A model generated the notes under the pieces. That model was given only the letters and a program-made list of their open reading frames with translations, was not told where the DNA came from and ran no database searches. From an archaeon (lineage in GTDB: Archaea; Nanobdellota; Nanobdellia; Woesearchaeales; GW2011-AR15): a stretch of DNA of 45,441 nt. Location: contig JABHHN010000005.1 in NCBI GenBank assembly GCA_018671515.1, forward strand, positions 1 to 45,441. Direction: 5' to 3'. Positions 16,201-45,441 of this stretch are shown here, piece by piece (the stretch's first letter is position 1; each line of letters begins with the position of its first letter). A program made the translations under genes and the position numbers.

Positions 16201-16202
16201 TA

Positions 16203-16887: not shown

Positions 16888-16957
16888 TATGGGGTTGAAT
16901 TGATTATGAAACTTTTTTGTAAATTTTATTTTTGTGTGTCTAATTTTATAATAATTA

Positions 16958-18214
16958 CTAACTATATTTTCTTGGGTCTGCTATTTTCCCTTCAATGCAA
17001 CTAGCAGCAACAGTTGCTGGACTTGCTAAATATACAAATGAATTAGGAGATCCCATTCTTCCTTTGAAATTTCGGTTTGATGATGAAATGCAGATTTTTT
17101 TATCAAGTAGAGTTGGTCCAATTGCACCAAAACATGGACCGCATGACGCAGTCATTATTTTTGCACCTGCTGTTTCAAGTATATTAAGTATTCCAAGTTC
17201 TTTTGCTTCATTCATTATTTCAATTGATGCAGGATATACATAAAGGCTAGTTCCATCTTTGATTTTTTTATCTTGCAATATATTTGCAGCAATTTGTAAA
17301 TCTTCAATTCTTCCATTTGTACAACTCCCTAGATATGCTTGGTCAATTTTTATTTCATCAATTTGATTTATTGATTTTATATTATCAACTTTATGAGGAA
17401 ATGCAATTTGTGGTTCTAGGTTTTCTACCTCTATATTTATTATTTTTTCAAAATTTGCATCTGGATCATTAAATATTGGATGATATTTTTCGTCAGTTTT
17501 TGATTCAATATATTCTTTAGTTTTATGATCAAATGTGCAGATTCCTGCTTTTGCTCCAAGTTCAACTGCCATGTTAGATAATGTCATCCTTGCTGATATA
17601 CTCATGTCTGAAATTGTTGTGCCTGTGAATTCCAGAGTTTTGTAAGTTGCACCTTCTGATTTAATCATATCGAGAAGTTTTAGTAAGATATCTTTTGAAT
17701 ATACTCCATTTGGTAATTTTCCATTTATGATTACTTTTATTGTTTCAGGAACTTTTAACCATATTTTTCCAGTTGCCCATATTCCTGCCATTTCAGTTCG
17801 ATTTATTGGGATACCAAGTGCGCCAAGACTTCCATATATTGTTGAATGTGAATCTGCACCCATTGTGATGCTTCCCGGAAGTACAAAACCTTTTTCTAAC
17901 ATTACTTGATGTGACACACCTGCTTTAGTATCAAAAAAATTTGTAATTTGTTGTTCTTTTACAAATTCTCTTGCTTCATCATGGTTTTTTTTGTGTTCTG
18001 GATTTTTTGCTGGGACTGTATGATCAAAAATAATTACAATCTTATCTTTATTCCATACTTTTTTAACTCCTGTATTCTTGAATTTTTTTATTATGAATGC
18101 AGAATTATCATGAGACATGACTCTATCTGGTTCTATAATTACTATGTCTCCTGGTTTTACATGATTTTTACCAGAATATTTCATTAATATTTTTTGACTT
18201 ATTGTGTATGGCAT
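16958..18214 (-). CDS. lysT: Homoaconitase large subunit
   Basis: GADSHSTIYGSLGALGIPI, AYLGSCTNGRIEDLQIAANIL, SCGPCFGAIGPTL, SSNRNFKGRMGSPNSFVYLASPATVAAS. Confidence 0.92.
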   Translation of the reverse strand: MPYTISQKILMKYSGKNHVKPGDIVIIEPDRVMSHDNSAFIIKKFKNTGVKKVWNKDKIVIIFDHTVPAKNPEHKKNHDEAREFVKEQQITNFFDTKAGVSHQVMLEKGFVLPGSITMGADSHSTIYGSLGALGIPINRTEMAGIWATGKIWLKVPETIKVIINGKLPNGVYSKDILLKLLDMIKSEGATYKTLEFTGTTISDMSISARMTLSNMAVELGAKAGICTFDHKTKEYIESKTDEKYHPIFNDPDANFEKIINIEVENLEPQIAFPHKVDNIKSINQIDEIKIDQAYLGSCTNGRIEDLQIAANILQDKKIKDGTSLYVYPASIEIMNEAKELGILNILETAGAKIMTASCGPCFGAIGPTLLDKKICISSSNRNFKGRMGSPNSFVYLASPATVAASCIEGKIADPRKYS

Positions 18215-18235
18215 TTGTCCTTGGTTTAGTTATAA

Positions 18236-19627
18236 TTATTTAGATTTACCATTGCTCTCGTGCTTTTTAAGAACAATTTTTGTACTTGTTGTTTTAATTC
18301 CTTGAACAGTTCTTAATTCTTCAATTAGTGTATTTAATTCTGCAGTATTCTGTACTTTTATATATGCTGAAATATCATGTTCCCCTGTAATTTCAAATAC
18401 ACTTTTTATATGCTTGAAATTTTTCAAATGTCTGACAACAGTTGTTGTATAAACTTCTGCTTCAACAGAGATAAGGATAAGTGCATTTATACCTTTAGGT
18501 ATAACATCTGATGTTCTATTTGTAACTTTTTCAGCTATTTCAATTATATCTGTATCATGAAGAATTTTTCTATCATCGCCAACATTTTTTATCTCTTCAA
18601 TGATTTTTCTTAATTCTTCATCATTTACTTCAATATCATAGTGTTCTAGTTTTGATAGAACTGCTCTTTTTCCAGTATATTTGTCTACGATGATTGTTCT
18701 TTCTCGTCCTATTAATGAAGGCTCAAAAGCTTCATATGTACTTGGATTCTTTAAGACTCCATCTGTATGGACTCCAGATTTATGTGAAAATGCATTTAAT
18801 CCAGTTATAGGATTATTATTTGGTATGAAAAACCCTGATGCTCTTTCTACATATTCAGAAACTTCCATTATATGTTCGATGTTATATTTTTCAAGTTTTT
18901 CAAGAATATGATAAGACATAATTGTTTCTGCTAAATCTGGAACACCAGTTCTCTCTCCTAATCCATTAACACAGACATGAATACAATTTGCACCAGCTCT
19001 TATTCCTGCCATTCCATTTGCAAGTGCAAGACCAAAATCATCATGGCAATGTAAATCCATTTCACAAGGTAGAATTGTATCTTTTAGTTTTTTTACTTTG
19101 TCATAAAAAATATGTGGTTGCATTATACCAAGTGTGTCTGCATAACTGATTCTGTCAGCTCCTGCGTTTATTGCAGCATTACATGCTCTAACTAGAAAAT
19201 CAAATTCAGTTCTAGTAGCATCTTCAGGTGTAAATCTTACTTTTAATCCAAGACTAACTGCATATTTAATGTGCTCTTCAATAATTTGAATTGCTTCATC
19301 TTCTGTCTTATAGACTTTTGTTTCAAGATGTATTTTTGATGTAGGATATAACACAACAACTCTATCGACTCCACATTCTTTTGCTTTGTCAATTCCTGGT
19401 TTTTTGGCTAATGAATGGGCTAAAATTTCTGCATTTAGATTTAATGATGCAATTTTTTTTATTGCTTCATATATCTTTGGAGAAACGCTTGGATCTCCTG
19501 CTTCAATCATATCAACTCCAATTTTGTCAAGGAGCTTTGCAATTTCAACTTTTTCATCCACTGTAAAATTTACATACGGTGTTTGTTCTCCATCTCTTAG
19601 TGTAGTATCTAGTATTTTAAGTTTCAT
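18236..19627 (-). CDS. hcs: Homocitrate synthase with C-terminal RAM (Lrp/AsnC ligand-binding) domain
   Basis: LDTTLRDGEQTP, DLHCHDDFGLALANG, VNGLGERTGVPDL, FSHKSGVHTDGVLKNP; C-terminus INALILISVEAEVYTTTVVRHLKNFKHIKSVFEITGEHDISAYIKV is RAM-like. Confidence 0.9.
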   Translation of the reverse strand: MKLKILDTTLRDGEQTPYVNFTVDEKVEIAKLLDKIGVDMIEAGDPSVSPKIYEAIKKIASLNLNAEILAHSLAKKPGIDKAKECGVDRVVVLYPTSKIHLETKVYKTEDEAIQIIEEHIKYAVSLGLKVRFTPEDATRTEFDFLVRACNAAINAGADRISYADTLGIMQPHIFYDKVKKLKDTILPCEMDLHCHDDFGLALANGMAGIRAGANCIHVCVNGLGERTGVPDLAETIMSYHILEKLEKYNIEHIMEVSEYVERASGFFIPNNNPITGLNAFSHKSGVHTDGVLKNPSTYEAFEPSLIGRERTIIVDKYTGKRAVLSKLEHYDIEVNDEELRKIIEEIKNVGDDRKILHDTDIIEIAEKVTNRTSDVIPKGINALILISVEAEVYTTTVVRHLKNFKHIKSVFEITGEHDISAYIKVQNTAELNTLIEELRTVQGIKTTSTKIVLKKHESNGKSK

Positions 19628-22030: not shown

Positions 22031-23041
22031 CTAGGTGAATTTAATATAATTGTCTTTAGATAAGTCATTTCTATATTCAGATTCTTCTTTTTCTTCGTTT
22101 TTTACTTTTTTTTCAAGAACTCTTGCAACACTTTCCTCTTCTTGAATTTCTAATTCATGCTTTGATTCTTCTTCCATTATAATTTTTCTATTTTTTTCTA
22201 TCTGTTCAATTTTTTCAAAGAATTCTTTTTCTTTTAGTGTTTTATCACAAAATTCTAAAATTTGATTTGAATAATCTTCAGATATTTTTTTAATTTTTGA
22301 CAATTCAGATAAAAGATTTTCAGAATTGATATCCTTGATATCCTTTGACATATTTTTTAATATTTTATTTTGTGATTCTATATGGACTAAAAAAGAATCA
22401 AATAAATTTTCAGATTTTATTTTTTCAATGAATTGTTCATCAAGTTTGATGTCTGATTCAATTTTTGATTCTTCTTTTAATTCATCTTTATCAATTTTAA
22501 TTTTTTCTTCAGTAAATTCTTCATCTTCTTGATCAAATGATTCGTGGAATAATTTTTCTTCTTTTTCTTCATTTATTAGTTCATCTTTATTTTCTTCTTC
22601 AAGTTTATCTATTATTTTTTCTTCTTTCTTATCAATTTTATAATCTTCTTCTATTCTTTTTTTTGTATCTTTAAATTCATCTTTTATTCTGACATTTAGA
22701 AGAAGAACATTAATTAGAGAAGTTTTTGTTTCATTGATGACATTATCTGAAATATTTTCAGCATTAAATAATTTAAAATTGTTGGAGATGGTATTAAAAT
22801 CTTCAATTTTTTTCTCTGTTAGTTTCAAACCTGTGTCAAGATCAGAAATAGATTCATTGATATCAGTTATTTCATCACTAATATCTTTTTGTAATTCATT
22901 TATTTCTTTCATCTCTTCTTCTCTGTCTTTATCTTCTCTTTTTAATTCTTTTTGTAGAGTTTTGTCTTCTTTTTTAAAAGGTCTTCCAAATGCTTTATCT
23001 GCACCAAGAATTCTTTTTATTGATTCAATTATCCAATTCAT
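22031..23041 (-). CDS. Highly charged coiled-coil protein
   Basis: Long heptad-like E/K-rich helices throughout. Confidence 0.55.
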   Translation of the reverse strand: MNWIIESIKRILGADKAFGRPFKKEDKTLQKELKREDKDREEEMKEINELQKDISDEITDINESISDLDTGLKLTEKKIEDFNTISNNFKLFNAENISDNVINETKTSLINVLLLNVRIKDEFKDTKKRIEEDYKIDKKEEKIIDKLEEENKDELINEEKEEKLFHESFDQEDEEFTEEKIKIDKDELKEESKIESDIKLDEQFIEKIKSENLFDSFLVHIESQNKILKNMSKDIKDINSENLLSELSKIKKISEDYSNQILEFCDKTLKEKEFFEKIEQIEKNRKIIMEEESKHELEIQEEESVARVLEKKVKNEEKEESEYRNDLSKDNYIKFT

Positions 23042-23115
23042 AGAATTATTATTGATGCTTTATATTATAACTTTTTCGGAAAAGTATTTAATTTCTAGAT
23101 GATTCATTTATTGCA

Positions 23116-24708
23116 ATGGGAAATATTGAACCTAAAAAAAAAAGTAGATTTAAAAAAAATATTGATGTCCTTAAGTTACCAAAAAAAACATATAAGACTG
23201 CAAAAAAAATTGCAAAAAAAGGATTGTCAAAGTCAAATTTAGCATTAGCAAGTGGATTGGATATATTTTTAGAAAAAGAAATTGGAGTTAGGAAGCAATT
23301 TTTTGGATTTTTAAATTTTATACCTCATAAAATAAGAAAATATAGTAAAATTTTATTTCCTTTGGCATTAATGTTTTTAATACTAAAATGGGATTTACCA
23401 ATTCCAATAGACATAAAAAAAGCATTTGCATTATTTATCTGCATAGGATTATTATGGGGACTTGAATCTTTACCTATGGTAGTAACTGCAATAATGGTTC
23501 CTGTATTGATAGTTTTATTAGGATTAGGAAATCAGACAGAAGCATTATCTTCTTTTTCAAATCCTGTCATATATCTTCTATTTGGAGGTCTTATTTTAGC
23601 AGTAGCTTTTAGAAAAAATGGATTAGATCGAAGATTTGCTTTTAAATTATTATCATTATCAGGAGGAGATTCTAAAAAAATTCTGTTTTACTTTATGTTA
23701 TCATCAGCCGTATTAGGTATGTGGATGTCAAATACTGCTACAGTTGCACTTTTAGTGCCAATTGCTATTTCAATTTCAAGTTATATTAAAAAAGAAGATA
23801 ATAAAAAATTTATTTCAGTTCTAATATTATGCATAGGGATAGGAAGCTCAATTGGTGGGATGTCAGCTATTACAGGAAGTACACCAAATGCAATAACTTC
23901 TGCATTTATTAATGAAAATAATATATTTAGTTTTTCCCAGTGGATGCAGATTGGTGTACCAATTTCAGTTATTTGTTTTATGTCTGCATACTTTTTATTA
24001 ATTAATATGTTTAAAATAAAAAGTAAAAATATAATTGAAAATTCTAAAGAATTTTTTAAGATAGATGAACCTTTGACATATAATCAAAAAAAGACTATTG
24101 CAATTTTTTTACCTACAATTATTTTTTGGATATTTGGAAAAGATATTGCAATATATTTTAATCTGAATCCAAATATCTTTAGTTCAACTATTGTGAGTCT
24201 TATTGCTGTTATTTTTTTATTTAGTGTGAAAATAATATCATGGAGTGATGCAAGATCAATTGCTTGGGAAGTTCTTTTATTGATAGGTGGAGGTTTAGCA
24301 TTAGGAAAGGTATTGATCAATACGGGTGCTTCAAAGTTATTTTCTGATTTTATCCTTTCATATTTTACAGGAATTCATCCATTGATTGTTTTGATGGTAA
24401 TAATGTATATGGCAATATTTTTAGCAAATTTTGTTAACAATTCTTCAACAGTAATAATACTTGTTCCTACTTTGATGGCGTTAGGTGATTCTATGAATCT
24501 TAGTCCTATAATGCTTGCTTTAGCAGTAGCACACGCAGTAGCTTTATCTTTTATTACACCAATAAGTATTCCTGCATTTTCAATAATCTATAGTACACAT
24601 TTAGTTGATAGAAAAGATATGATTAAATCTGGATTGATTATTGGTTTTATTAACACAATAATTGTTTCATTCATATTAATATTATATTCAACATGGAGGG
24701 GTTTCTAA
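23116..24708 (+). CDS. DASS/SLC13-family Na+/dicarboxylate or sulfate symporter
   Basis: PMVVTAIMVPVLIVLLG, MWMSNTATVALLVPIAI, GGMSAITGSTPNAITSAF, FVNNSSTVIILVPTLMAL. Confidence 0.85.
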   Translation: MGNIEPKKKSRFKKNIDVLKLPKKTYKTAKKIAKKGLSKSNLALASGLDIFLEKEIGVRKQFFGFLNFIPHKIRKYSKILFPLALMFLILKWDLPIPIDIKKAFALFICIGLLWGLESLPMVVTAIMVPVLIVLLGLGNQTEALSSFSNPVIYLLFGGLILAVAFRKNGLDRRFAFKLLSLSGGDSKKILFYFMLSSAVLGMWMSNTATVALLVPIAISISSYIKKEDNKKFISVLILCIGIGSSIGGMSAITGSTPNAITSAFINENNIFSFSQWMQIGVPISVICFMSAYFLLINMFKIKSKNIIENSKEFFKIDEPLTYNQKKTIAIFLPTIIFWIFGKDIAIYFNLNPNIFSSTIVSLIAVIFLFSVKIISWSDARSIAWEVLLLIGGGLALGKVLINTGASKLFSDFILSYFTGIHPLIVLMVIMYMAIFLANFVNNSSTVIILVPTLMALGDSMNLSPIMLALAVAHAVALSFITPISIPAFSIIYSTHLVDRKDMIKSGLIIGFINTIIVSFILILYSTWRGF

Positions 24709-26512: not shown

Positions 26513-28061
26513 ATGGTCGAGAATAAAGTAGGATTAATTGCATATGCTGATAGGTTTGGAAGCGGAAAAATAAGGGATTTCAGTGAGATAATCAAAGAGC
26601 ATTTTAATGGATATTTTGGCCATATTCACCTTCTACCAACAATATTCCCACATGGTGGAAAAGACGCAGGTTTTGATTGTATAACTCATCTACAGATAAA
26701 CCAATTATTGTCAGAAAAAAAAGAGGGTAAAGTATTGGATGGTTGGGAAGAGATAAAAAATATTACTGGAAAAGAAAGAAATTCACCTGGTGTAGACGTG
26801 ATGGTTGATGTGATTATTAATCACATTTCTTCAAAAAATCTTATGTTTCAGGATGTTCTTGAAAAAGGTGAAGAATCTAAAATATTGGGATTCATTTTTA
26901 CGTAAGGATTCTAGATTTGATGGAAATGTATTTACACCACAAGAAATAGAAAAAGTCTATAGGCCACGTGATGGATTGCTATTTTCAAAAAAAACAATCA
27001 GAAAAGAATTGAAAGGAGTAAGAGAGGTTGATTTTTGGACTACTTTTACACCTGATCAGATTGATGTAAATATATCTGATAAACATATAGAAAAATATTT
27101 TGATGACACATTAGAAAAATTAGCACAAAATGGTGTATCTCAGATAAGGCTTGATGTTGCAGGATATATTTCAAAAAAACCTGGAACTGATTGTTTTTTG
27201 ATTCCTGAAGCATATCAATATATTGAAGAATTTTCAAAAAAAGCAAAAGTAAAAGATATAGATGTCTTAGTTGAATTACATTATCATCATGAAAAAATTC
27301 TTGATGTTGCAGAAAGAGTAAAAAATTATGCTTATGTTTATGATTTTCAGCTTCCACCATTGATTTTAGATGGTATTTTTAGAGGTGATGCACAAAATAT
27401 TGAAAATTGGTTGAAAATTAGACCTGAGAAAACATATACAGTTCTTGATACACATGATGGGATAGGTATAATAGATTCTGAGGATTTACTTGGAAATCAA
27501 AGTCTTCCAGAAGAAAAAAAGAAGGAGCAGGACATAACTAGAAGAGAACAACTCATAAGAAAAATACATGAAAATACCAAAGGAAATAGTGAAAAAGCAA
27601 GTGGAGGTAATGCAAATAATTTAGATTTATATCAAGTGAATACAACATTTTATGATGCTTTAGGAAGAGATGATGGTGCATATTTATTAGCAAGAGCAAT
27701 ACAATTTTTTACACCTGGTATTCCACAAGTATATTATACAGGTCTTTTAACTGGAGAAAATGATGTGGATATTTTAAGATATACACAAGAAGGAAGGGAT
27801 GTGAATCGACATTGGTATTCAAAGAAAGAGATTTCTCAAGCATTGGAAAAACAAGTTGTAAAAGATCAATTAGAGCTTATTGAGTTTAGAAATAATCATC
27901 CAGCATTTGATGGAAGTGTATTCAATTATTCTTTGATTGATAATCATACACTTAAATTCAATTGGACAAATAGAGAACATCATGCTATTCTAATAGCTGA
28001 TTTGAAAAAGAAAAATTATAAAATAGAATATTCAAATGATGGCAAAAAGTATAATGTTTGA
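26513..28061 (+). pseudogene. GH13 sucrose-phosphorylase-like gene interrupted by a frameshift (ORFs 26513-26905 and 26853-28061)
   Basis: YADRFGSGKIRDFSEIIKEHFNGYFGHIHLLPTIFPHGGKDAGFD...NHISSKNLMFQDVLEKGEES joins to KYWDSFLRKDSRFDG...QIRLDVAGYISKKPGTDCFLIPE; one extra A in the A4 run at 26879-26882 accounts for the break. Confidence 0.85.
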
Positions 28062-33284: not shown

Positions 33285-33692
33285 ATGGCTAAAAGACTTC
33301 ATAAGAATCAGAAGGAAAGAATTTCAACTGATATGTATTTAAAATCAATTTTAGAATATGAATTAGATAATGGAAAAAAGTCTAAACCTATTGAAATTGT
33401 TAAATCATTAAATCTGACAAAAGGAAGTGTTTCAGAGATGATAAAAAAATTAGAAGAAGAAAATTATATCAAATATGAGTCTTATGGTGAAATTAATCTT
33501 ACAGAAAAAGGATTGAAAAGAGCAAAAAATGTTAAAAAAAAATATGTAGTGATAAAGAAATTTTTAGATGAAGTATTAAAATTTGATACTTCAAAATCTC
33601 ATATAGAAGCATGTAATTTGGAGCATGCATTTTCTGATGAATCAATAACAAAATTAAATACATTACTAAAATTTTTGGAAAAGAATAAATGA
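33285..33692 (+). CDS. DtxR/MntR-family metal-dependent repressor
   Basis: YLKSILEYELDNGKKSKPIEIVKSLNLTKGSVSEMIKKLEEENYIKYESYGEINLTEKGLKRA...HIEACNLEHAFSDESITKL. Confidence 0.85.
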   Translation: MAKRLHKNQKERISTDMYLKSILEYELDNGKKSKPIEIVKSLNLTKGSVSEMIKKLEEENYIKYESYGEINLTEKGLKRAKNVKKKYVVIKKFLDEVLKFDTSKSHIEACNLEHAFSDESITKLNTLLKFLEKNK

Positions 33693-33718
33693 TTCTTAAT
33701 TACAAATTTATGTAGTAA

Positions 33719-33746
33719 CTTATTTAAACTGTATGGTTATCCTAAC
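33719..33746 (+). promoter_or_regulatory. feoA promoter: TATA-like TTATTTAAA plus DtxR-type operator GTATGGTTATCCTAAC (33731-33746)
   Basis: Reverse complement GTTAGGATAACCATAC matches GTTAGGATATCCGAAC at 35903-35918 at 13 of 16 positions; ATG at 33752. Confidence 0.6.
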
Positions 33747-33751
33747 TCTGT

Positions 33752-33994
33752 ATGTGTGATATTTTAAAATTGTCTGAAGTAGATAATTGTTCAAATGGTT
33801 CTTCATTATTTATTACTTCTATTTCAGATGAATTAGATTCTAAAGCAAAACTTGAATCATTGGGCTTTTATAAATCTTCTAAATTAAATATTATAAAAAA
33901 TGAGCCACCATCTCCTATGATTATTAGGATAAAAGGGTCAATAATTTCAATTTCGAGAGATATTGCACACAAAATTTTCGTTAAAAATGAATAA
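33752..33994 (+). CDS. feoA: FeoA-like protein
   Basis: About 80-aa SH3-like ORF (SDELDSKAKLESLGFYKSSKLNIIKNEPPSPMIIRIKGSIISISRDIAHKIFV) overlapping feoB. Confidence 0.85.
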   Translation: MCDILKLSEVDNCSNGSSLFITSISDELDSKAKLESLGFYKSSKLNIIKNEPPSPMIIRIKGSIISISRDIAHKIFVKNE

Positions 33995-35777
33995 AATTAA
34001 TGTAGCAATTGTTGGAAATCCAAATTCAGGTAAATCAACATTATTTAGTACTTTGACTGGTTTTCATCAGGAAGTTGGGAATTGGCCAGGAAAGACAATT
34101 GAGAAAAAAGAAGGTTGCACTTGTTTTAGAAATCAAAAAATAAATTTTGTAGATCTTCCAGGTATATATAGTTTAAACACTGATACGCAAGAAGAAAAAA
34201 TTGCTAAAAAATTCATAGAATCAAAAAAATATGATGTTATTTTAAATATAGTTGATGCGTCAAATATTGAAAGAAATTTATTTTTAACAATGCAGTTAGC
34301 TATGTATACAAATAATATGATTATTGTTCTTAATTTAAACAAATATGCTAAAAAAATTGGTTATGATATAGATATTGATAAATTATCAAATAAATTAGGA
34401 ATTCCAATAGTGCCAATGGAAGCAATAGATGATATTAAAAAAAATATATTACTTTTAAAAATTTTTAATCATAAGAAAAAATTAATAAAACCTAAAAAAA
34501 ATAAATTAAAAGCAGAAGAAATATTCAATCAAATTGAAAATATATTAAAATCTTGCATAAAAAAAAAAGATAAAAATATTTTTTCAAATAAATTAGATAA
34601 GTATTTGACAGATAACTATTTTGGGATGTTTATTTTTTTTGTTGTGATGTTTTTCATATTTTTTTTGACATTTTATTTATCAGAACCAATAGTAAAATTA
34701 CTAGAAAAATCAATATTCATTTTATCAAATATAATTGGATCTATTCTTATAAAAATTTCAGCACCTGATTTTTTTATTTCTCTAATAAATAATGGAATTA
34801 TTTCAGGAATAGGTTCTGTATTAGTATTTTTTCCAAGTATATTTATTTTATTTTTTTCATTATCTTTATTGGAAGATACAGGATATCTTGCAAGAATTGC
34901 TTTTATTATGAATAATATTATGTCTAAATTGGGTCTTTCTGGAAAAGCATTTATTCCTCTTCTTTTAGGTTTTGGATGTAATGTTCCAGCAATACTCTCA
35001 ACAAGAACACTTTCTAAAAAAGAAAATAGAATTTTGACTATGTTAATTACACCATTTATGTCATGTAATGCGAGATTGCCTGTATTCATATTAATTGCAG
35101 GGGCATTATTTGACAAAGGTCAACCAATTATTATTTTTTCATTATATTTTTTAGGAATTTTAATTGCAATGATTTCATCTAAACTAATTTCAAAAATTTT
35201 ATTGAAAAATTCTTCTTCAAGTTTTATTATTGAATTTCCACCTTATAGGATTCCAAGAATAAAATATGTTTTATATTCTGCTTGGTTGAAATCCAAGGAT
35301 TTTTTGAAATCTGCAGGAACTATCATAATTAGCATGGTGTTATTGATATGGTTTTTTGCAAGTATGCCATATGGTGTGGAATATGCATCAGAAAATAGCT
35401 TGATTGGTATTTTAGGAAAATTTATTTCTCCAATTTTTAGACCATTAGGATTTTCAAATTGGAAAATAGCAGTTGCACTTATATTTGGTTTTATTGCAAA
35501 GGAAGTAATTATAGGAACTCTTGGAACATTATTTAAAACAACAAATGTTGGTGGTTTAAAATCAAGTATGTCAGAGGTATTTACTCAACCATCTGCGATA
35601 TCATTTATGGTGTTTGTTCTTTTATATGTTCCATGTCTTGCAACACTTAGTGCAATGAAAAAAGAATCAGGTTCTTGGAAATGGCCCATATTTTCAGTAT
35701 TATTTTCACTTGCAATTGGTTGGATATTTTCATTTTTAATATATAATATTATTAATTTGGTGATATTATGGAATTAG
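33963..35777 (+). CDS. feoB: Ferrous iron transporter FeoB (likely start at 33987)
   Basis: VAIVGNPNSGKSTLFSTLTGFHQEVGNWPGKTIEKKEG, FVDLPGIYSL, LLGFGCNVPAILSTRTL, TPFMSCNARLPV. Confidence 0.95.
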   Translation: MHTKFSLKMNKINVAIVGNPNSGKSTLFSTLTGFHQEVGNWPGKTIEKKEGCTCFRNQKINFVDLPGIYSLNTDTQEEKIAKKFIESKKYDVILNIVDASNIERNLFLTMQLAMYTNNMIIVLNLNKYAKKIGYDIDIDKLSNKLGIPIVPMEAIDDIKKNILLLKIFNHKKKLIKPKKNKLKAEEIFNQIENILKSCIKKKDKNIFSNKLDKYLTDNYFGMFIFFVVMFFIFFLTFYLSEPIVKLLEKSIFILSNIIGSILIKISAPDFFISLINNGIISGIGSVLVFFPSIFILFFSLSLLEDTGYLARIAFIMNNIMSKLGLSGKAFIPLLLGFGCNVPAILSTRTLSKKENRILTMLITPFMSCNARLPVFILIAGALFDKGQPIIIFSLYFLGILIAMISSKLISKILLKNSSSSFIIEFPPYRIPRIKYVLYSAWLKSKDFLKSAGTIIISMVLLIWFFASMPYGVEYASENSLIGILGKFISPIFRPLGFSNWKIAVALIFGFIAKEVIIGTLGTLFKTTNVGGLKSSMSEVFTQPSAISFMVFVLLYVPCLATLSAMKKESGSWKWPIFSVLFSLAIGWIFSFLIYNIINLVILWN

Positions 35778-35890
35778 AAAAAATTATTTTTTACTTAATT
35801 GGATTTCTTATAGTTTATTTTTTCATAAAAACAATTAAAAATTCATTCTCACCACAAAAAAAATGTGGGAAATGTTGTAGCAATAAGTAA
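35768..35890 (+). CDS. FeoB-associated Cys-rich membrane microprotein (40 aa, not in ORF track)
   Basis: Manual translation MELEKIIFYLIGFLIVYFFIKTIKNSFSPQKKCGKCCSNK*; overlaps the feoB 3' end. Confidence 0.8.
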   Translation: MELEKIIFYLIGFLIVYFFIKTIKNSFSPQKKCGKCCSNK

Positions 35891-35892
35891 GT

Positions 35893-35918
35893 TTTATAAA
35901 TAGTTAGGATATCCGAAC
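35893..35918 (+). promoter_or_regulatory. ftr1 promoter: TATA-like TTTATAAAT plus operator GTTAGGATATCCGAAC (35903-35918)
   Basis: Near-perfect palindrome sharing GTTAGGATAwCC with the feoA site. Confidence 0.6.
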
Positions 35919-35945
35919 TTATAAGTTTTGTTAAATAAATATTAG

Positions 35946-36788
35946 GTGATAAATATAATTGCAATTTTTTTGATAACATTTAGAGAAACTCTTGAAGCAT
36001 CACTTATAATTGGAATAATGCTTGCTTATTTGAAGAAAACTAAAAATACAAGATATAATAACATTGTCTATATAGGAATTTTTGCAGGTATATTTGGAAG
36101 TTTTTTATCTGCATTTTTATTTAATAAATTGGCAGGTGGGTTTACTGGGCGTGCTGAAGAAATTTTTGAAGGAGTAATTATGTTGGTTGGTTCAATTCTT
36201 TTGACAAGTATGATATTATGGATGATGAATCAAAAACATGTTTCAAAAGAAATTGAAAATAAAATATTAAAAGATATAAATAGAAAAGATAAATTTGGCT
36301 TATTTATGCTAGTTTTTTTTTCGGTATTAAGAGAAGGAGTAGAAACAGTAATATTTTTGGGTTCTGCATCATTAATTTCTAAAAATAATGGTTTTTTTGG
36401 AGGAATTTTAGGGATAGGAGTTGCTATGTTTTTGGGATATTTAATTTTTGTAACATCAATAAAAATAGATGTAAAGAAATTTTTTAACATATCAAGTTTA
36501 ATACTTATATTTTTTGCAGCAGGACTTACTGCACATGGGATACATGAATTACAAGAAGCAAAAATAGTTCCAACTATTATTGAACATGTATGGGATGTAA
36601 ATCCAAAAGCACCTATAGCAGAACAAGGAATTTATCCAGCATTACATGAAAACGGAGCTATTGGAAGCATAGGGAAAGGATTATTTGGTTATAATGGAAA
36701 TCCATCTTTAATTGAAGTGATATCATATTTATTATATTTAGGAATAGTATTTTTTGTTTATAGAAATATTGAAAAAAACAAATTTTAG
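35946..36788 (+). CDS. FTR1-family iron permease
   Basis: GTG start; FLITFRETLEASLIIGIMLAYLKK and FFSVLREGVETVIFLGSAS contain the REGxE-type motifs. Confidence 0.88.
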   Translation: MINIIAIFLITFRETLEASLIIGIMLAYLKKTKNTRYNNIVYIGIFAGIFGSFLSAFLFNKLAGGFTGRAEEIFEGVIMLVGSILLTSMILWMMNQKHVSKEIENKILKDINRKDKFGLFMLVFFSVLREGVETVIFLGSASLISKNNGFFGGILGIGVAMFLGYLIFVTSIKIDVKKFFNISSLILIFFAAGLTAHGIHELQEAKIVPTIIEHVWDVNPKAPIAEQGIYPALHENGAIGSIGKGLFGYNGNPSLIEVISYLLYLGIVFFVYRNIEKNKF

Positions 36789-37219: not shown

Positions 37220-37408
37220 TTATTTTTGAGTATTGGGAATTTTTTCATAATTTAATTTTATATTATCAATTATTCCAATTATGTTTTCAATTTCATTTAT
37301 TGCTCCATATATTTGGTGTTGTCTTTCAATTTTTATTTCACCATTTTCCATAAGGTTAATAAGTTTCTCTTTTCTATCAATATACAATTTTTTAATATTT
37401 TCAACCAT
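37220..37408 (-). CDS. Small helical hypothetical protein at the end of the giant-protein operon
   Basis: 62-aa ORF overlapping the 37401-41471 ORF stop. Confidence 0.45.
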   Translation of the reverse strand: MVENIKKLYIDRKEKLINLMENGEIKIERQHQIYGAINEIENIIGIIDNIKLNYEKIPNTQK

Positions 37409-40400
37409 TGTTTTCTTTTCTCAATGCATCAAGATAATCTATGATTTCTTTTTTATTTTTAAGTCTTGCAATATTAAATGCAATTTCTCTAAAATCAAGT
37501 GATCCAGAAATCCATAATGAAAAGTCATTTCTTTGAGGAGTCACATATTTTTCAAATTCATCAGTAGTTGCAATATTTAACCAATGATAAAGAGAATCAA
37601 TACTTTTTAATTTTTTTCCGTCATCAAGGACAAATTCATTTCCAGGAGTAGATTTTCTGATAAAAATATCATGACTATATTCATCAATTGTCTCTTCTTC
37701 TTCTGATTCTTTTTTTTCATTAGTGGTTTCTTTTTCTTTCTCTTTTTGTACAATAGGTTTTGCAGGTTTTTCTGTAGATTTTATAGGTTCAACTGGTTTT
37801 TTCTCTACTTTTGTTTCTTCTTTTACAGGTGTTTTTGGTACTTGTTTTTCTTGTTCAACTTTTTTAATATTTTCATTTTTTGGAGATTCAGTTGTTTTTT
37901 CTGGAGTAGTTTTTTCCTGAGTTACTTCTTTTTTCCCTTCTGTTTTGGATGTTTCATCTTTTTTCTCTTTTTTCTTTTCTTCTTTTTTTGGAGCAGATCT
38001 ATCAATTATTTTTGCTGGTTTAAAATCTTTAACTTTATCATTTTTAATTGCGTCAAGGAATTTTACAAAATCATCTTTTTCAATTATTGTATCAGCAATT
38101 TTTGCCCATTCTTCATTTTCAATTGCTGTTCTTATCCAATCTGCAAAATCACTTTTTTCTTCATTTACATGTTGGGCAAAATCTTCTTCTTTCATAGCTG
38201 CAACTTCATCATATAGACTTGCAAGTGTCAGGCATAACATACCATTTACTAAATTTAGAATTTGTTCAGGTTTGACATCATCAGTATATCCTAATCCTTT
38301 TTTTTCTTCTTTTCCATCATCCTCTTTTTTTTCAGGGTTATTTTTCTCAAATTCTTCTCTCTCTGATTTTGCTTTATCTAAGTCTGCCTGAAGTTCTTCT
38401 TCAGATACTAATTCAATTTCTTTTTTTAATGGTGTTTTTCCAATTGCATCCCAAATTTTTTGAATTCTTGGTTTAAGACCTTCAAGATAAATTTCTACCA
38501 TATTAAAAGAGCCAGATTTAATTTTATCTAAAGATAATTTTAATTCTAAGTTCAAATCAAAAACATCTTGTCCTTCTTGTTCTAATTGATTTAATTGATA
38601 TTGAAGATCTTCAACTATAGCATTGTATTTATTATAATTATTAAGTTCTTCATCTGAAAGACGTTTTACACTGTGCAAGATAGGTCTAAATGTAACATAA
38701 TATGGATGACCTCTATTCCATGCTGAATTTTGAACTAATCCTGAACCTACTGGTGATTTAACTAATTCCTGGACAAAACTTGCACCATATCTATCTTTAA
38801 TTCTATTCAAATCTCCTTCATCTCTTGTTTTCATCTGAACTTCCGTGTTGATGTTAGCTTTAATTTGTCCCATGAAATCAGATAATACCTGAGATACCAA
38901 CATTACTCCAACACCCCACTTTCTGAATTCTCTGCAAGCCCTTTCTATCTGGACAAAACCTTCTCCTGATCCACCGAACTTAGGTAGGATTCTGTGGATC
39001 TCGTCATAAACTAGCATAAATCTTAATCCTCTATATTCCTGAAGATTTGAATTGAAAATAGTTCTAACTGTATTTGCAACAAAAGTATCGAATTCTGCAG
39101 GTTTAAGTTTATTAACTGTAAATACTTGAATTTCACCTGGTTTCATATAATCAAAAATTTTAATTTTCTCTCTAGGATTATCAATTGATTTGACATTTCC
39201 ATTAAATGCTCTAGCGCTCTTTTTAGTAAGATGATATCTTGGATAGAATTGCAGCATCTTTGCATCTTCAAGTTTTCTTAGCATTCCAGACCATTGTGCT
39301 GTCGGATCAAAGACTACTACGCCTACATCTTTTAATAGGCATTCTTCAATAATAACTTGTGCTGAAATGGATTTACCTCCTCCTGTTGAACCTGCAACAA
39401 TTGAATGAACTGTTAATAAATCCATGTCAAAATATGTGTCATTTGTAGTTTCAGCAATTTGTCCGACATATAATGATCTAGGTCCTTTTTTTGGCAAGAG
39501 TTTATATTCTATTTTTACGTGGAACCTTTTATTTGCTTCAATCCTTTTCTTAATTATTAATCCTATTAATAGTAGTAATGATAATATGAATAGTATCAAC
39601 AATAATTTCCAAAGTTCAATCAAACCGAATACTGAATACATGTATAGTGGTTCATAAACCTTAAAATGAGTAATTACTTGTGATGTAAGATCTAAATATT
39701 CTGCATCTACAATGACTGCATAATCTCCTTTTGGCCAGTCTTTAGGTATATCAAATGATTTTATTTGTGACGAAGCAGTCAATAATTCAATTGAATCATT
39801 TCCAATGTACATTGAATAGTTAGAAGTTATAGGCTCTACACCTATGATATTATAATCTAATGAAACATTATATTGTTCTTCTGTTAGCATGTTTTGTAAA
39901 TTAAGACGAAATTTGAATTCGTCACTAGCATAAGGTCTAAGAGTAAGTAATTCAAGTTGCATTAAGAGTGCTTCAATTGGAAGTTTATCTTCATCAGTTA
40001 CAATTATTCTAACGGGAATAGAATCATTGAAATCTCCACCAATATCAATTGAACCTGTATATGTTCCTAGTTCAGATCCTAATACTCTTATTGTAAAATT
40101 TTCAAAACTACTTGGATCTACAGTAATAGAATCTCTATTTAATTCAGCTATTTCTGAAACATTACCTGAAATACTAACTGTGACTTTGGCAGGTATTTCT
40201 CTAAAACTATATATCATTATAGAATCTTGAAAGAAATTACCTAATCTGATTTTTTTATATAATTTTTCTAAAGATACCCAATGGTCAACACCTGGTTCTC
40301 TAGGTTCTTCTAAAAATGGTCCAATTCCAGGTCCAATTCCAGGTCCAATTCCAGGTCCTTCTCCAGTTTTAGATTTTGTTTTATCACCTGGATCATCCTC

Positions 40401-41471
40401 ACCAGTACCTACACCTGATCCAGTTCCAGTCAATTCTTGGATATCTACAAATGGTTCCATATAAATATCATGGAAAGTTTCATTTCCAGAAATTACTGTT
40501 ACATTAGCAATATAGTTGATATAGCCCTCTTTTGTAGCTACAAGTTTGTATGTTCCTGCAGGAACTTCTGTTACATTATAGAAACCAATTGAATCAGAAT
40601 AATCATTACTAATACCAACAAATACTACTGCAACATCAATTGGAAGACCTGTTTGATTATCTCTAACAATACCAGAAACACGACCAGCTCCAAGAGCTTC
40701 GTCTTCACCTTCTGGACATTCATCATATGGGTCTGTATATATATAATATTCTTCAGTTCCACTAGCAACAGGAATCATTATCTGATAATTTACTAATCCA
40801 AGTATTGAAATTGGTGCATAACCTTCATCAAAACCATTAATTTCTTTTGTTACATAAATAAGATTTGTTCCGTCAGTTAAAATTCCAACTGGATAATCTA
40901 CACTATCAGTGTCATTGTATTTATAGGTATAAACAACAGGAATATCACTTATAGTAGTTCCACCAAGAGATATTGACATTGTATAATGAAATGTCTGTTG
41001 TGCACTCATATTATTTTCTCCAGTTGTACCTAAATAAGCATCAACTTCAGCAGCTGTACCTGCAGTGACTGATGCCCAATTTATTGTTCCAGGTGTTGCA
41101 GTAGATACATATAATTCATGAGTGACACCTGGTTGAAGACAATCAAAAAAGAAATTCTTTAATTCAACATCACTAGATTTTGCAGTAACAGTGGGTTGAG
41201 CACTAAAACCTGGAAATCTAAGTATAAGACCTGCCATTCCATACCAATATGTTGCAGGGTTTTCTTCTCTTATATCTAATTCAGATATTGTTCCAGCTCT
41301 TGCATTATGATAAGTAGCATAACCAATATAATCTCCAATTAATATTAATGAAATTATAGAAGTGGTAATTAGTAGTACAAGGAAACTATTATTTAGGATT
41401 GCATCTAGATCAATCCTTTTTTTACTGATAGTTTTCCTTTTTACTATTTTTTTTGATCTTTTTTTCTTCAT
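37401..41471 (-). CDS. 1356-aa membrane protein: extracellular beta-rich region with CarboxypepD_reg-like domain, TM, cytoplasmic HerA/DUF87-like ATPase, two C-terminal helical repeats
   Basis: TM (LVLLITTSIISLILIGDYIGY), TM (LWKLLLILFILSLLLLIGLII), Walker A AGSTGGGKS, Walker B-like LRFMLVYDEIHRI, MLVSQVLSDF; SGIVRDNQTGLPIDVAVVFVG...GTYKLVATKEGY. Confidence 0.85.
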   Translation of the reverse strand: MKKKRSKKIVKRKTISKKRIDLDAILNNSFLVLLITTSIISLILIGDYIGYATYHNARAGTISELDIREENPATYWYGMAGLILRFPGFSAQPTVTAKSSDVELKNFFFDCLQPGVTHELYVSTATPGTINWASVTAGTAAEVDAYLGTTGENNMSAQQTFHYTMSISLGGTTISDIPVVYTYKYNDTDSVDYPVGILTDGTNLIYVTKEINGFDEGYAPISILGLVNYQIMIPVASGTEEYYIYTDPYDECPEGEDEALGAGRVSGIVRDNQTGLPIDVAVVFVGISNDYSDSIGFYNVTEVPAGTYKLVATKEGYINYIANVTVISGNETFHDIYMEPFVDIQELTGTGSGVGTGEDDPGDKTKSKTGEGPGIGPGIGPGIGPFLEEPREPGVDHWVSLEKLYKKIRLGNFFQDSIMIYSFREIPAKVTVSISGNVSEIAELNRDSITVDPSSFENFTIRVLGSELGTYTGSIDIGGDFNDSIPVRIIVTDEDKLPIEALLMQLELLTLRPYASDEFKFRLNLQNMLTEEQYNVSLDYNIIGVEPITSNYSMYIGNDSIELLTASSQIKSFDIPKDWPKGDYAVIVDAEYLDLTSQVITHFKVYEPLYMYSVFGLIELWKLLLILFILSLLLLIGLIIKKRIEANKRFHVKIEYKLLPKKGPRSLYVGQIAETTNDTYFDMDLLTVHSIVAGSTGGGKSISAQVIIEECLLKDVGVVVFDPTAQWSGMLRKLEDAKMLQFYPRYHLTKKSARAFNGNVKSIDNPREKIKIFDYMKPGEIQVFTVNKLKPAEFDTFVANTVRTIFNSNLQEYRGLRFMLVYDEIHRILPKFGGSGEGFVQIERACREFRKWGVGVMLVSQVLSDFMGQIKANINTEVQMKTRDEGDLNRIKDRYGASFVQELVKSPVGSGLVQNSAWNRGHPYYVTFRPILHSVKRLSDEELNNYNKYNAIVEDLQYQLNQLEQEGQDVFDLNLELKLSLDKIKSGSFNMVEIYLEGLKPRIQKIWDAIGKTPLKKEIELVSEEELQADLDKAKSEREEFEKNNPEKKEDDGKEEKKGLGYTDDVKPEQILNLVNGMLCLTLASLYDEVAAMKEEDFAQHVNEEKSDFADWIRTAIENEEWAKIADTIIEKDDFVKFLDAIKNDKVKDFKPAKIIDRSAPKKEEKKKEKKDETSKTEGKKEVTQEKTTPEKTTESPKNENIKKVEQEKQVPKTPVKEETKVEKKPVEPIKSTEKPAKPIVQKEKEKETTNEKKESEEEETIDEYSHDIFIRKSTPGNEFVLDDGKKLKSIDSLYHWLNIATTDEFEKYVTPQRNDFSLWISGSLDFREIAFNIARLKNKKEIIDYLDALRKENNG
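40318..40358 (-). repeat. 12-bp tandem repeat (GGTCCAATTCCA) encoding GPGIGPGIGPGIG
   Basis: Three full units plus a partial unit, in frame. Confidence 0.85.
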
Positions 41472-41473
41472 TT

Positions 41474-44400
41474 TTATGAGTTGATTAATGCTACTAATTC
41501 ACAGCATTTTGGATATATTTCTTCTCTTGTTTTTGGATCAAGATTTTTGTATTCTTTATTTATAACTTCGTATGCAGATAGTGCTTCTTCATAGTCTTCA
41601 TTTCCTAGATGTATGAATGCTTCATCAATCATCGATGACACATATCTTTGATTTATATGATGACATTTTTCTGCAATATTATCATAAAATTGATCTTTTA
41701 GATTAATTGATAAATCTCTAAATAAAACTTTTAGTTCCGTATATTTCATACCTGCATCATAGAGTAAATTTGAATCAATGAGTATAGTTATTTCAGATAT
41801 TAATTCGTTGATTTTATTTATGATATTAGAATCAAAATTACTTAACATTTCATCTCTAACACCATTTATAGGTACTGTACTATATTTAAGATTATTATAA
41901 ATGAATATTCCTGAGAGTATGAATATTATTATTATTTGTACAAAAAATATTTTTTTACTATTTTCACTTATACCTACTTTATCTAAAACTGCAAAACCAG
42001 TTATTCCTGATAATGTTCCAGATTTTTCTATTTCATTTGTTATAAGTAATGTTTTTACTTGAGGTAGGACTTCTAATGCAAGTTTTCTATTTATATAATA
42101 AGAATAATCTTTTGTTTCTTTGGAAATTTCAAACATTGGATCTTTATTTATTATTTCATAATCTTCAAATAAGAAACTTATTTCATCCGTGTTTGTTATA
42201 ACTTCTTTAGGTATGAATTCTACTATTTTCATATCGTCATAAATTGGATTAAAATCAAGTCTTTTTGCAATTATTGTGATATCTTCTTTCCTTCCAGTCA
42301 TATATTCAATATGTACGTTATAACCTCTTGTATTTACTGTAACTTTTTTCTGAAGTAATAAATTTGTTTCTATGAAATCCTTTTTTTCACCTTTTGACAT
42401 TTCAATATTTTTTGATTCAATATATAATTCAAGAAGTTCTATTGCATCTTCATCATTAATATATTTTACATATTCGTTGTCTTTTTCAATTACAAGAACC
42501 ATAGGTATTGAATTTTTAATTTCTTCAATTTGGGATAATAATGCATTTCTTTCATCTAATACGTCAATTGCATTATCTTTATATCTAAGATTGAATAAAT
42601 CTCTATTTGCTTTTTCAAGATCTTTTTTTAGGTCTTTTATTCTATCATCAAAATTTAATAATTCTATAACTTTTCTTTGCTCTGGCGAGTATAAACTAAA
42701 ATCAGGTAACAAATCAAGTACTTCAGACACTGCTGTGTATGTTTCATTAATTTCTTCTTTACTGTTATTATTTACGTTGGATGATGAAGCTCTCGCTCCA
42801 CTTTCACTATTTGTATTATCTGCATCATTATTTGTTTCATCATTATTTGATCCTACATAATTATTATCAATAGTGAATTCTCTTGTTGCACTAAATACTT
42901 CAATTTCTTCTACGTCAATACATTCAAGTTTCCAAAAATAAGTACCTTCATCAAGTTCAATATTGAATTCATAATTAGTATTTGGGACTAGTCCTGTTTT
43001 TGTTTCTTCTTCAGACCACCATCCATCACCTTGAGAAATATACAAAGTACAATTTGTATTTTGTTCATCATTTACTTTAAATTCTAGGTTTGGAGAACTT
43101 GAAAATGTTTCACCATCATCAGGATATAAAAGTGAAATCAAAGGTGGGAATGAATTATCTTCAGGAACTAACGAAACACTTATTTCATCTGATCCATTTA
43201 TCTGTATATCTTCTGAATACGAATCATAATCGCTATGAGTGACCTTTAATTCATAAGTTTCATTACTTAATCTAAAAACAACATCTCCTGTTTCATTTGT
43301 ATAATTATCTAATGAATCAAATCTTACTTTTGCATCATCTATTGGTGAACCATTAACATTATTTTTGACTTTTATTTTTACATCATAACTTTCCTTGATT
43401 TTTATTTCTTTAACTATTGAAAAATCATTATCTTCTGAATCAAGTATTATTAAAATTACATGGTATTTTCCAGCAGTAGAATATGTATGACTAGGATTTA
43501 GTTCTGTACTTTGTGTGCCATCTCCAAAGTCCCAAAGATAAGATAATGCACCTACACCACCTGAAATAGAAGGAGTGAATTTTATATTTTCATATTCAAA
43601 ATAATTATTTTCAAAATTTAGGATTGCATTTAGATTATTATCAACTTCAAAATGGTTTGTCTTTGTAACGGTAAAGTCATCATATGTATTTATTGCTTCA
43701 ATATTATATGTGCCAGATTTTCCAGTAAATGTAAATAATTGTTGCAATGGATATGTTGCATCATTGAATATATATACATATGAAAAATTTGTAGGTGAAT
43801 CTATTGTAAGATATGTATCTGATCCAGGAGGTGCTGCTACTGTTACCATTACTTGTTCATTAGGGATGTAATTTTGTTTGTTAGTTACGATTTCAAGATT
43901 GATATAATCAAGAGTTGCAGGATTGCAATCATCATCTATACTATTGTATAGGATTTCACTCATACCTGGGTTTATATTTGGATTGTTATCATCACAATCA
44001 ACTTCTATGTCATATCCATCATTATCATTATCGTTCTCTGTTGTATTTGTATCATTTTGAATTATTTTTTCAAAATGCGATATATTAATGGTATCAAATT
44101 CAACTTTATTGTCAAAACCTTCAACATAACAATTTACATTATAATTGAATGTGCCGTCATTTTGGAATGTAGTTTCATATACATGAAGATTAAGATTAAT
44201 GTCAAAATGCATGACACCTAATATTGTAGAATTATCAGTATATAGACAGCTATTTGCAATACTTATGATTTTTGTTTCATTAGTATAATTTGCATATATG
44301 GTTGTAATATTTGTTGGATATGTTATATTAAAATCAGTTGAATCATAAATTACAAGTGATGAATTATAAATTTTTGTTGTGTTTGTAATAGTTTCATTTG

Positions 44401-44755
44401 TTTCTGGTTCTGTTTCATTTATTATAGATTCATTATTTGTTTGATTTATAGTCTCATTTATTGTTTCGTTTACTGTTTCATTTATTGTTACGTTTAAATC
44501 TAAGACAATTAAATCTAATGAAGCACTTATTCCACCTTGGTCATCTATTATTATTTCTGAAATATTAAGTTCTTCTTCTATTGTTGTATTTAGTGTTTCA
44601 TTTATTAAAATTTCAATATCTTCATACATGCCATTTTCATCTTCAACTGTCATGTTAGTTTCATTAGTTTGAGAATAAGCAAATGAAATTGTAAGTGATA
44701 GTATGATAACTAAGATGATTCTACTTGTCCATCTATTTGTATCATTATATTTCAT
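41474..44755 (-). CDS. 1093-aa surface protein: signal peptide, sequon-rich stalk, MopE-like motif, PKD domain, CarboxypepD_reg-like domain, coiled coil, TM, cytoplasmic helical domain
   Basis: NETVNETINETINQTNNES; DNDGYDIEVDCDDNNPNINPGMSEILYNSIDDDC; ALSYLWDFGDGTQSTELNPSHTYSTAGKYHV; IFFVQIIIIFILSGIFIYN. Confidence 0.8.
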   Translation of the reverse strand: MKYNDTNRWTSRIILVIILSLTISFAYSQTNETNMTVEDENGMYEDIEILINETLNTTIEEELNISEIIIDDQGGISASLDLIVLDLNVTINETVNETINETINQTNNESIINETEPETNETITNTTKIYNSSLVIYDSTDFNITYPTNITTIYANYTNETKIISIANSCLYTDNSTILGVMHFDINLNLHVYETTFQNDGTFNYNVNCYVEGFDNKVEFDTINISHFEKIIQNDTNTTENDNDNDGYDIEVDCDDNNPNINPGMSEILYNSIDDDCNPATLDYINLEIVTNKQNYIPNEQVMVTVAAPPGSDTYLTIDSPTNFSYVYIFNDATYPLQQLFTFTGKSGTYNIEAINTYDDFTVTKTNHFEVDNNLNAILNFENNYFEYENIKFTPSISGGVGALSYLWDFGDGTQSTELNPSHTYSTAGKYHVILIILDSEDNDFSIVKEIKIKESYDVKIKVKNNVNGSPIDDAKVRFDSLDNYTNETGDVVFRLSNETYELKVTHSDYDSYSEDIQINGSDEISVSLVPEDNSFPPLISLLYPDDGETFSSSPNLEFKVNDEQNTNCTLYISQGDGWWSEEETKTGLVPNTNYEFNIELDEGTYFWKLECIDVEEIEVFSATREFTIDNNYVGSNNDETNNDADNTNSESGARASSSNVNNNSKEEINETYTAVSEVLDLLPDFSLYSPEQRKVIELLNFDDRIKDLKKDLEKANRDLFNLRYKDNAIDVLDERNALLSQIEEIKNSIPMVLVIEKDNEYVKYINDEDAIELLELYIESKNIEMSKGEKKDFIETNLLLQKKVTVNTRGYNVHIEYMTGRKEDITIIAKRLDFNPIYDDMKIVEFIPKEVITNTDEISFLFEDYEIINKDPMFEISKETKDYSYYINRKLALEVLPQVKTLLITNEIEKSGTLSGITGFAVLDKVGISENSKKIFFVQIIIIFILSGIFIYNNLKYSTVPINGVRDEMLSNFDSNIINKINELISEITILIDSNLLYDAGMKYTELKVLFRDLSINLKDQFYDNIAEKCHHINQRYVSSMIDEAFIHLGNEDYEEALSAYEVINKEYKNLDPKTREEIYPKCCELVALINS

Positions 44756-45005
44756 TTAATTCCTCAAGTATCCTTTTTAATTCTGACTTTAGATGTTTCA
44801 TTTTTTTTGGAGCTTTTAACTCATCAATTTGTTCACTGATTTCACTTAATGGTTTAGAATAAGGGTATCTATGATCAAGCATCTTATTTCTAAGAACTGA
44901 TCTCATTTGTTCACTTAAGTCTAAATAGTGGTTTTTACCTGCTAAGTTTTTTAATTCAGATACCATTGAATTTGGCATCCTTACAGAAATAATTTTTTCT
45001 GCCAC
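44745..45005 (-). CDS. Ribbon-helix-helix protein (GTG start)
   Basis: ISVRMPNSMVSELKNLAGKNHYLDLSEQMRSVLRNKM. Confidence 0.75.
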   Translation of the reverse strand: MAEKIISVRMPNSMVSELKNLAGKNHYLDLSEQMRSVLRNKMLDHRYPYSKPLSEISEQIDELKAPKKMKHLKSELKRILEELNEI

Positions 45006-45157
45006 TATTTATCTCTCTCCTCAAATACATATTGCCTTGCAAATTCCCTAATCGCCTCAGAACGGGAAGAATATATTTTTTTTTTGACAAGTTTATCTAG
45101 AAAGAGTATGATATCAGGAGGAAGTCTTACATTTACAACTGTGATTTTTTGAGGCAT
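45005..45157 (-). CDS. Second ribbon-helix-helix protein (50 aa, not in ORF track)
   Basis: Manual translation MPQKITVVNVRLPPDIILFLDKLVKKKIYSSRSEAIREFARQYVFEERDK*; TAGTG one-nt overlap with the next gene. Confidence 0.85.
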   Translation of the reverse strand: MPQKITVVNVRLPPDIILFLDKLVKKKIYSSRSEAIREFARQYVFEERDK

Positions 45158-45196: not shown

Positions 45197-45441
45197 TCTA
45201 ATGTGGTAAAATATGACACTTGTATGATATTTTATGTACATGTGTAGTATATAAATATTGTGATTTTGTATGTTGTATTTTGTATGTATTATATATGTAT
45301 GACTGAAGTATTATTTAATTTATTCAAAAAATATAATAATAATATTTTGATAATTTATATAGAAAGTAATTTATAGAAAAAACGTTTTATCATTTATTAA
45401 TATGATTAAATTTAATAAAATATTAACATTTTTATTATTAA

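Follow-up and report, generated by a model that had tools for sequence, protein, structure and literature searches.

Giant archaeal surface proteins that carry a C-terminal, membrane-anchored ATPase resembling VirB4 and TraG have been described under the name SPEARE (PMC6642349, PMC10266531). They comprise a signal peptide, a tandem of Ig domains, a transmembrane (TM) segment, the VirB4/TraG-like ATPase and a coiled coil, with a second ATPase gene downstream, and they have been proposed to inject effectors (PMC10266531). A SPEARE protein has been detected by proteomics, and sequences similar to the intracellular part of SPEARE were reported in Woesearchaeota (PMC6642349). CedD, a protein of Sulfolobales with a TM segment and a HerA-like ATPase, is needed for the import of DNA, not for its export (PMC11868833). 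We analysed an archaeal operon whose main product resembles these proteins in several respects.

The window that we studied is a whole contig of 45,441 bases (contig C8 of genome G000), from an assembly of 1.88 Mb. Its minus strand holds, from 45157 to 37220, a single close-packed operon of five packed or overlapping open reading frames (ORFs), all of which were found at the coordinates given in a preliminary description of the locus. The first gene encodes RHH1 (45005-45157), a 50-aa ribbon-helix-helix (RHH) protein and probable repressor subunit whose homologues head many operons in relatives. It overlaps by 1 nt with the gene of RHH2 (44745-45005, GTG start at 45005), an 86-aa RHH protein with a C-terminal extension. 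There follow, after an 11-nt overlap, the gene of PART (41474-44755), a surface protein of 1093 aa, and, 2 nt further, that of the ATPase protein proper (ATP, 37401-41471), which combines an ectodomain, a TM segment and an ATPase in 1356 aa. The assignment of both large proteins is based on Pfam, hydropathy, sequons and a structural model, and for ATP also on profiles. The last gene (37220-37408) overlaps the end of the ATP gene by 8 nt and encodes a 62-aa protein that is conserved only among close relatives (43-47% identity in G001, G002, G006 and G008). The operon consists of the RHH, PART, ATP and 62-aa protein genes only; genes for a channel, a relaxase, a pilus or a recognisable effector were not found in it. 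No further gene lies upstream up to the contig end.

Downstream of the operon are genes for a peptidyl-tRNA hydrolase (PTH2), an FTR1 iron permease and a FeoB-like protein. The adjoining region 33285-36788 is an iron cluster, with a DtxR-like regulator and the FeoB-like protein (both by eye) besides the FTR1 permease (Pfam). Elsewhere in the window, 5818-19627 contains genes resembling the alpha-aminoadipate lysine (LysW-type) or arginine pathway, assigned by eye except for the LysX matches; three LysX/RimK-like ATP-grasp genes are present (9426-10265, 13257-14105 and 14102-14938), and such completeness is unusual among DPANN archaea. At 26513-28061, two ORFs that overlap in different frames seem to be pieces of a single broken gene, which by eye resembles a sucrose phosphorylase and has no Pfam match, with a frameshift or sequencing error near 26853-26905.

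Pfam detected in ATP a DUF87 domain at residues 668-771 (2.3e-10) and one CarboxypepD_reg domain (1.4e-8). Two hydrophobic segments were apparent from hydropathy (about 24-50 and 609-646), and an AlphaFold2 model of residues 1-1060 (mean pLDDT 79) contained a helix at 22-48, a beta-rich outside part, a helix at about 620-647 and a RecA-type domain. The layout of the protein is, in order, an N-in TM segment (22-48), an ectodomain (55-606), a second TM segment (about 620-647) and an FtsK-HerA-type ATPase (665-995), followed by helices and an acidic/lysine-rich linker bearing two DUF5752-like motifs. The ectodomain is made of an N-terminal domain with invariant C111 and C252, the CarboxypepD_reg domain and a juxtamembrane Ig pair (400-606). 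A fold search with the model matched the ATPase to HerA chains and the outside part to generic proteins with Ig tandems; such tandems were among the top rows, and the TM-scores were low because the model was aligned in part.

The preliminary description had allowed that the supposed extracellular segment might prove cytoplasmic. It looks extracellular: there are 2.16 N-glycosylation sequons per 100 aa outside vs 0.14 inside (12 in 556 residues outside, vs 4.0 in shuffles, and 1 in 717 residues inside). The density was higher outside than inside in 40 of 40 homologues, and 128 collected ATPase proteins, a set that includes duplicate records, gave 3.9 outside vs 0.28 inside per 100 aa. This asymmetry supports the topology independently of the model. 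The ATPase core, for which an incomplete HerA/VirB4 fold had been considered, is of FtsK-HerA type, complete and strongly conserved. The Walker A motif is AGSTGGGKS (residues 693-701) and the Walker B motif VYDEIH (821-826); the Walker A lysine, the Walker B DE (D823 and E824, over 40 homologues) and the CREFRKWG...SQ segment are invariant. That the operon encodes a surface-anchored ATPase machine is well supported at the sequence level.

A profile of 29 relatives, when compared with the PDB, matched best with HerA structures (9x1l, 2e-13; 4d2i, 2e-13) and more weakly with FtsK (2e-4), the DotL coupling protein (1e-3) and VirB4 (0.01). The same genome encodes a separate, soluble HerA-like protein (on contig C74), which scored 87 bits on the profile of the ATPase core vs 584 for ATP. 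ATP had no match at E<=1 to the Pfam coupling-protein families, scored 14.6 bits with the NCBIfam model SXT_TraD (cut-off 366) and did not match the VirB4 N-terminal domain (PF03135); VirB partner genes are absent from the operon. By these tests and those with Ced models given below, and as far as sequence can tell, ATP falls outside the HerA, VirB4 and Ced proteins.

In PART, Pfam recognised a PKD domain (1.6e-13), a MopE-like motif (7e-7) and, weakly, CarbopepD_reg_2 (0.005), and no ATPase domain is present. Its hydrophobic segments are at about 9-27 and 932-957. The order is a signal or TM segment, an Ig/PKD tandem, a membrane-proximal alpha-beta domain (about 672-908), a TM segment and a cytoplasmic helical tail (about 962-1092). 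The outside part contains 3.53 sequons per 100 aa (32 observed vs 16.5 in shuffles) and the inside part none; the model (mean pLDDT 78) matched generic Ig-tandem proteins. The alpha-beta domain gave 67 matches in the loci examined, all in PART-like proteins and none in ATPase proteins. We therefore rejected the idea that PART and ATP are fused in relatives (a Rosetta stone), as ATPase proteins never carry the PART membrane-proximal domain and share with PART only Ig repeats and the tail domain. This tail domain is also C-terminal in nine collected longer ATPase sequences (some of them duplicate records) and occurs in some small proteins encoded nearby. Because it is shared with the longer ATPase forms, PART and ATP probably meet inside the cell.

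The RHH-PART-ATP order recurs across Candidatus Woesearchaeota. Of the ATP genes that encode 1100-1450 aa, 33 had 4.5 kb or more of sequence in front of them; PART lay directly upstream in 28, and an RHH gene was present too in 24 of those 28. The synteny of the two large genes, on which the earlier proposal depended, is thus conserved in relatives. The commonest junctions in these operons are overlaps of 4-14 nt. Among the best 80 matches listed, the nearest ATPase relatives were from metagenome-assembled genomes (MAGs) whose titles name Candidatus Woesearchaeota or Nanoarchaeota, so that the source is presumably a DPANN archaeon and most likely a woesearchaeote. The ATPase match scores in genomes around a record titled Diapherotrites were the same as the earlier ones, so that no new lineage is shown. 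A pair of ORFs of 587 and 716 aa (locus L038 of G050) was considered as a natural split of ATP and set aside, a frameshift or assembly error being equally likely.

Two further families, D1 and D2, which the preliminary description does not mention, recur downstream of the ATP genes of relatives. D1 is cytoplasmic and has DUF5752-like motifs; D2 is a coiled-coil protein of about 370 aa, for which no solved-structure relative was found. In G000 they lie side by side on contig C2 (about 22,464-24,701), not behind ATP, and D1 carries a PAS domain. Over 60 genomes, D2 and the ATPase agreed in 58 (22 with both, 36 with neither), with one genome having D2 alone and one the ATPase alone (22/1/1/36); G014, whose contig ends inside the ectodomain, was scored as ATPase-positive in this table. 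Outside the window's family, where nearly all genomes belong to different families, the corresponding numbers were 13/1/1/35. The Fisher values, which ignore descent, were 4e-14 for all 60 genomes and 5e-10 outside the family. In G050 (L038:559-4932), a 1457-aa PAS-array gene follows D2. At three loci (L089, L092 and L106), a regulator of about 215 aa, ArsR-like by eye, is encoded downstream of short ATPase forms, together with surface proteins that share the N-terminal ectodomain of ATP.

ATPase proteins with the same end, i.e. Ig pair, TM segment and ATPase, range from 689 to 15,809 aa. Counted from Walker A, the juxtamembrane Ig pair occupies about -293 to -88 in 116 of the 128 proteins collected. 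Given this constant register across such a range of lengths, motor, TM segment and first outside layer are a fixed unit, the remaining outside part varying freely. The longest form, on contig C41 of G032 (L044, L043, L042, L142), is a single ORF of 15,809 aa with the ATPase at its end (15,467-15,795). It exceeds the 9,409 aa of the protein called the largest in cultivated archaea (PMC10266531), with the proviso that misassembled repeats in MAGs could change the precise lengths of giants. Its hydrophobic segments are only near residues 16 and 15,417, and it has 578 sequons outside and 1 inside. It is followed by a 699-aa ATPase and then by a 696-aa protein with a D2 match. Two further giant ATPase frames, of 9,175 and 11,928 aa, were noted on contigs C97 and C93 of the same genome. 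The term 'giant', previously applied to both large proteins of the window, suits the relatives and is loose for PART and ATP themselves.

At four loci (L040, L041, L042 and L045), the tree pairs the giant or long ATPase with its short neighbour as mutual nearest kin. This could be due to recent duplication or gene conversion, and the tandems could reflect concerted evolution of the subunits of one ring. In a quick ATPase tree, most of the loci with giants fall outside the clade of compact forms; we did not retain the giant forms as the older state, since the HerA outgroup branch is long and the root therefore unsure.

RHH1 matched Pfam RHH_1 with an E-value of 2.1e-7. RHH2 gave a weak match (0.018; 15.4 bits vs a cut-off of 20.5), and has family homologues in relatives; those that share MxxxIxSVRMP back the 86-aa start. 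TACA counts and pattern scans pointed to a candidate operator, absent from the preliminary description, at 45274-45299 on the minus strand. It has three TACA half-sites in exact 11-bp phase (TACATATATAATACATACAAAATACA) and precedes the start of RHH1 by 117-142 nt; more TACA sites are found between it and the start codon. The mean count of TACA per 150 nt was 5.0 upstream of 23 RHH1 genes vs 0.56 upstream of 155 control genes. Forty neighbouring TACA pairs were spaced by exactly 11 bp before RHH1 genes, and none in the controls among the spacings listed. Inverted palindromes were rejected as the operator, as they were only mildly above shuffles, the signal being the direct 11-bp repeat.

When 40 whole genomes were scanned for WTACANNNNNMWTACANNNNNMWTACA, eight matches turned up at seven loci, of which G014, G025 and G039 are the only independent ones, the pattern having been derived from operons partly within the scanned genomes; the backward-read version yielded three matches. 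One of the seven loci is the window, and in the other six, which were inspected, an RHH1 or RHH2 homologue was present within about 350 nt (6/6). A PART-like gene follows in five of these six (weak matches in G014 and G039), and the RHH1 gene alone was seen at the G025 locus. The array is thus found upstream of these operons and almost nowhere else, and the claim that the operon has its own RHH control is now strongly supported: the RHH pair probably binds the phased TACA array, and self-regulation of the operon by its RHH genes has strong computational support. A looser three-unit TACA pattern found one locus besides the operon in G000. Four TACA sites in 11-bp phase are present there (C11:54781-54817; L170:8781-9356) before genes for a protein of 83 aa that by eye resembles RHH proteins and for a 97-aa homologue of YafQ/ParE-like toxins. 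The pattern suggests that other RHH proteins may use the same 11-bp TACA phasing.

The preliminary description had proposed a machine for contact-dependent translocation, adhesion or cell-cell interaction. Our preferred reading, which in our judgement has about an even chance of being right, is that the operon encodes a compact contact machine of the SPEARE kind, a surface-anchored and probably hexameric pump acting at cell-cell contacts. ATP would form an FtsK-HerA-type ring under the membrane. Each subunit would contribute two TM helices and a large outside loop, i.e. the topology of a coupling protein with the loop enlarged to an adhesin-like ectodomain. PART would be a second surface protein, with a tail that probably contacts ATP inside the cell, and D2 and D1 (the latter with PAS in this genome) would be cytoplasmic subunits. 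Engagement of another cell by the ectodomains might be the trigger, and ATP hydrolysis would drive a polymer, protein or DNA, in one direction or the other through a pore formed by the ring of TM helices, the RHH pair presumably regulating the production of all this by binding to its array.

Alternatively, the ring might take in DNA from neighbours or from the medium, to be recombined or salvaged for its nucleotides, much as CedB and CedD import DNA in Sulfolobales. CedD was indeed the best-scoring NCBIfam DNA-translocase model (7.7e-7 for ATP and 4.5e-11 for a short paralogue), and its role in import is a precedent (PMC11868833), but the scores of 28.1 bits for ATP, from the Walker A region only, and 42 for the paralogue are to be compared with a cut-off of 600, and the operon has no CedA-like channel or nuclease; we consider a DNA importer unlikely. 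Also improbable, in our opinion, is that ATP is no pump at all but an adhesin or receptor, the ATPase of which would control the assembly, clustering or conformation of the ectodomain, or relay contact through D1 and D2. The most conserved outside part is the juxtamembrane Ig pair, in register with TM segment and ATPase, the partners in the cytoplasm are of coiled-coil and PAS/DUF5752-like type and not parts of a channel, and PART has no ATPase domain, all of which would suit such a receptor; on the other hand, all catalytic motifs of ATP are invariant, and the FtsK-HerA fold is, to our knowledge, a pump fold in the families characterised.

A septal role in which ATP, tethered to the surface layer by its ectodomain, pumped chromosomes as FtsK does or served in cell division would agree with the membrane-anchored HerA/FtsK fold and with the FtsK structures matched above; it is made very improbable by the patchy distribution of the ATPase, which within the phylum was found in 66 genomes out of 371 (in 48 out of 243 when only those of high quality are counted) and is missing from many complete genomes, among them G004, a one-contig genome of the window's own family. 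Finally, an anti-phage defence system with a HerA-like ATPase hardly deserves credence, as the matches to PADLOC mad8 (55 bits) and to HerA models come from an ATPase with a sequon-rich ectodomain, no matching effector partner is in the operon and no defence effector is linked among relatives, and IMG/VR contigs encode no relative, which also speaks against a viral origin.

A contact-dependent pump of this kind would bear on the ways in which DPANN archaea adhere to their hosts and trade material with them. The compact operon is a SPEARE-type design cut to an ATPase protein of 770-1400 aa plus PART, D1, D2 and a regulator for which a DNA site is predicted, and its small size and defined parts make the proposed pump testable in the laboratory. 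The results also suggest that the giant surface proteins have as their base a fixed motor-membrane-Ig unit, which is common in Woesearchaeota, and the TACA operator pattern provides a way to find such operons from the DNA sequence alone. More tentatively, and with somewhat less confidence than doubt, we propose that DPANN archaea possess a class of self-contained contact-dependent translocation machines, in which one polypeptide would unite adhesin, membrane pore and ring motor. The motor-TM-Ig part would be fixed and the outside part would vary from about 250 to 15,400 residues, with D2 as partner, PART in the compact form and the RHH/TACA switch.

In comparison with known proteins, ATP shares with HerA the RecA-like FtsK-HerA core, Walker A and B, the RK..G...SQ segment and the best PDB sequence matches, but has a TM segment and an ectodomain in place of the N-terminal barrel, and no HAS-barrel match in Pfam. 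It resembles type IV coupling proteins (VirD4/TrwB/TraD, DotL) in being N-in, with a TM segment, an outside loop, a second TM segment and a cytoplasmic ATPase, and differs from them by the length of its external loop (about 560 aa). Like CedB and CedD of Sulfolobales (PMC11868833), it would be a membrane-anchored ATPase of the HerA clade acting between cells, but it is far below the family cut-off, and the Ced proteins have no described giant ectodomain. The closest likeness is in layout. As in the nanohaloarchaeal SPEARE proteins, for which a role where archaeal cells touch has been proposed, a signal or TM segment, an Ig-rich outside part, a TM segment near the C-terminus, a cytoplasmic VirB4/TraG/HerA-type ATPase and a helical end follow one another, and the giant relative on G032:C41 also has a second ATPase gene directly after it, whereas the window has none. 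ATP differs from SPEARE by its size (1356 aa vs 4,000-9,400 aa for most SPEARE proteins), with about 560 aa outside vs thousands of residues, and Pfam found no LamG or protease domain in it. We know of no description, for SPEARE, of an RHH-PART-ATP operon with a phased operator and D1/D2 partners. The preliminary description, which had called the apparatus undescribed, was thus partly right, the architecture itself being already published as SPEARE (PMC6642349, PMC10266531). We class the operon as a variant of SPEARE that is compact and regulated, a kinship that is based on the published architecture and on the statement about Woesearchaeota in PMC6642349.
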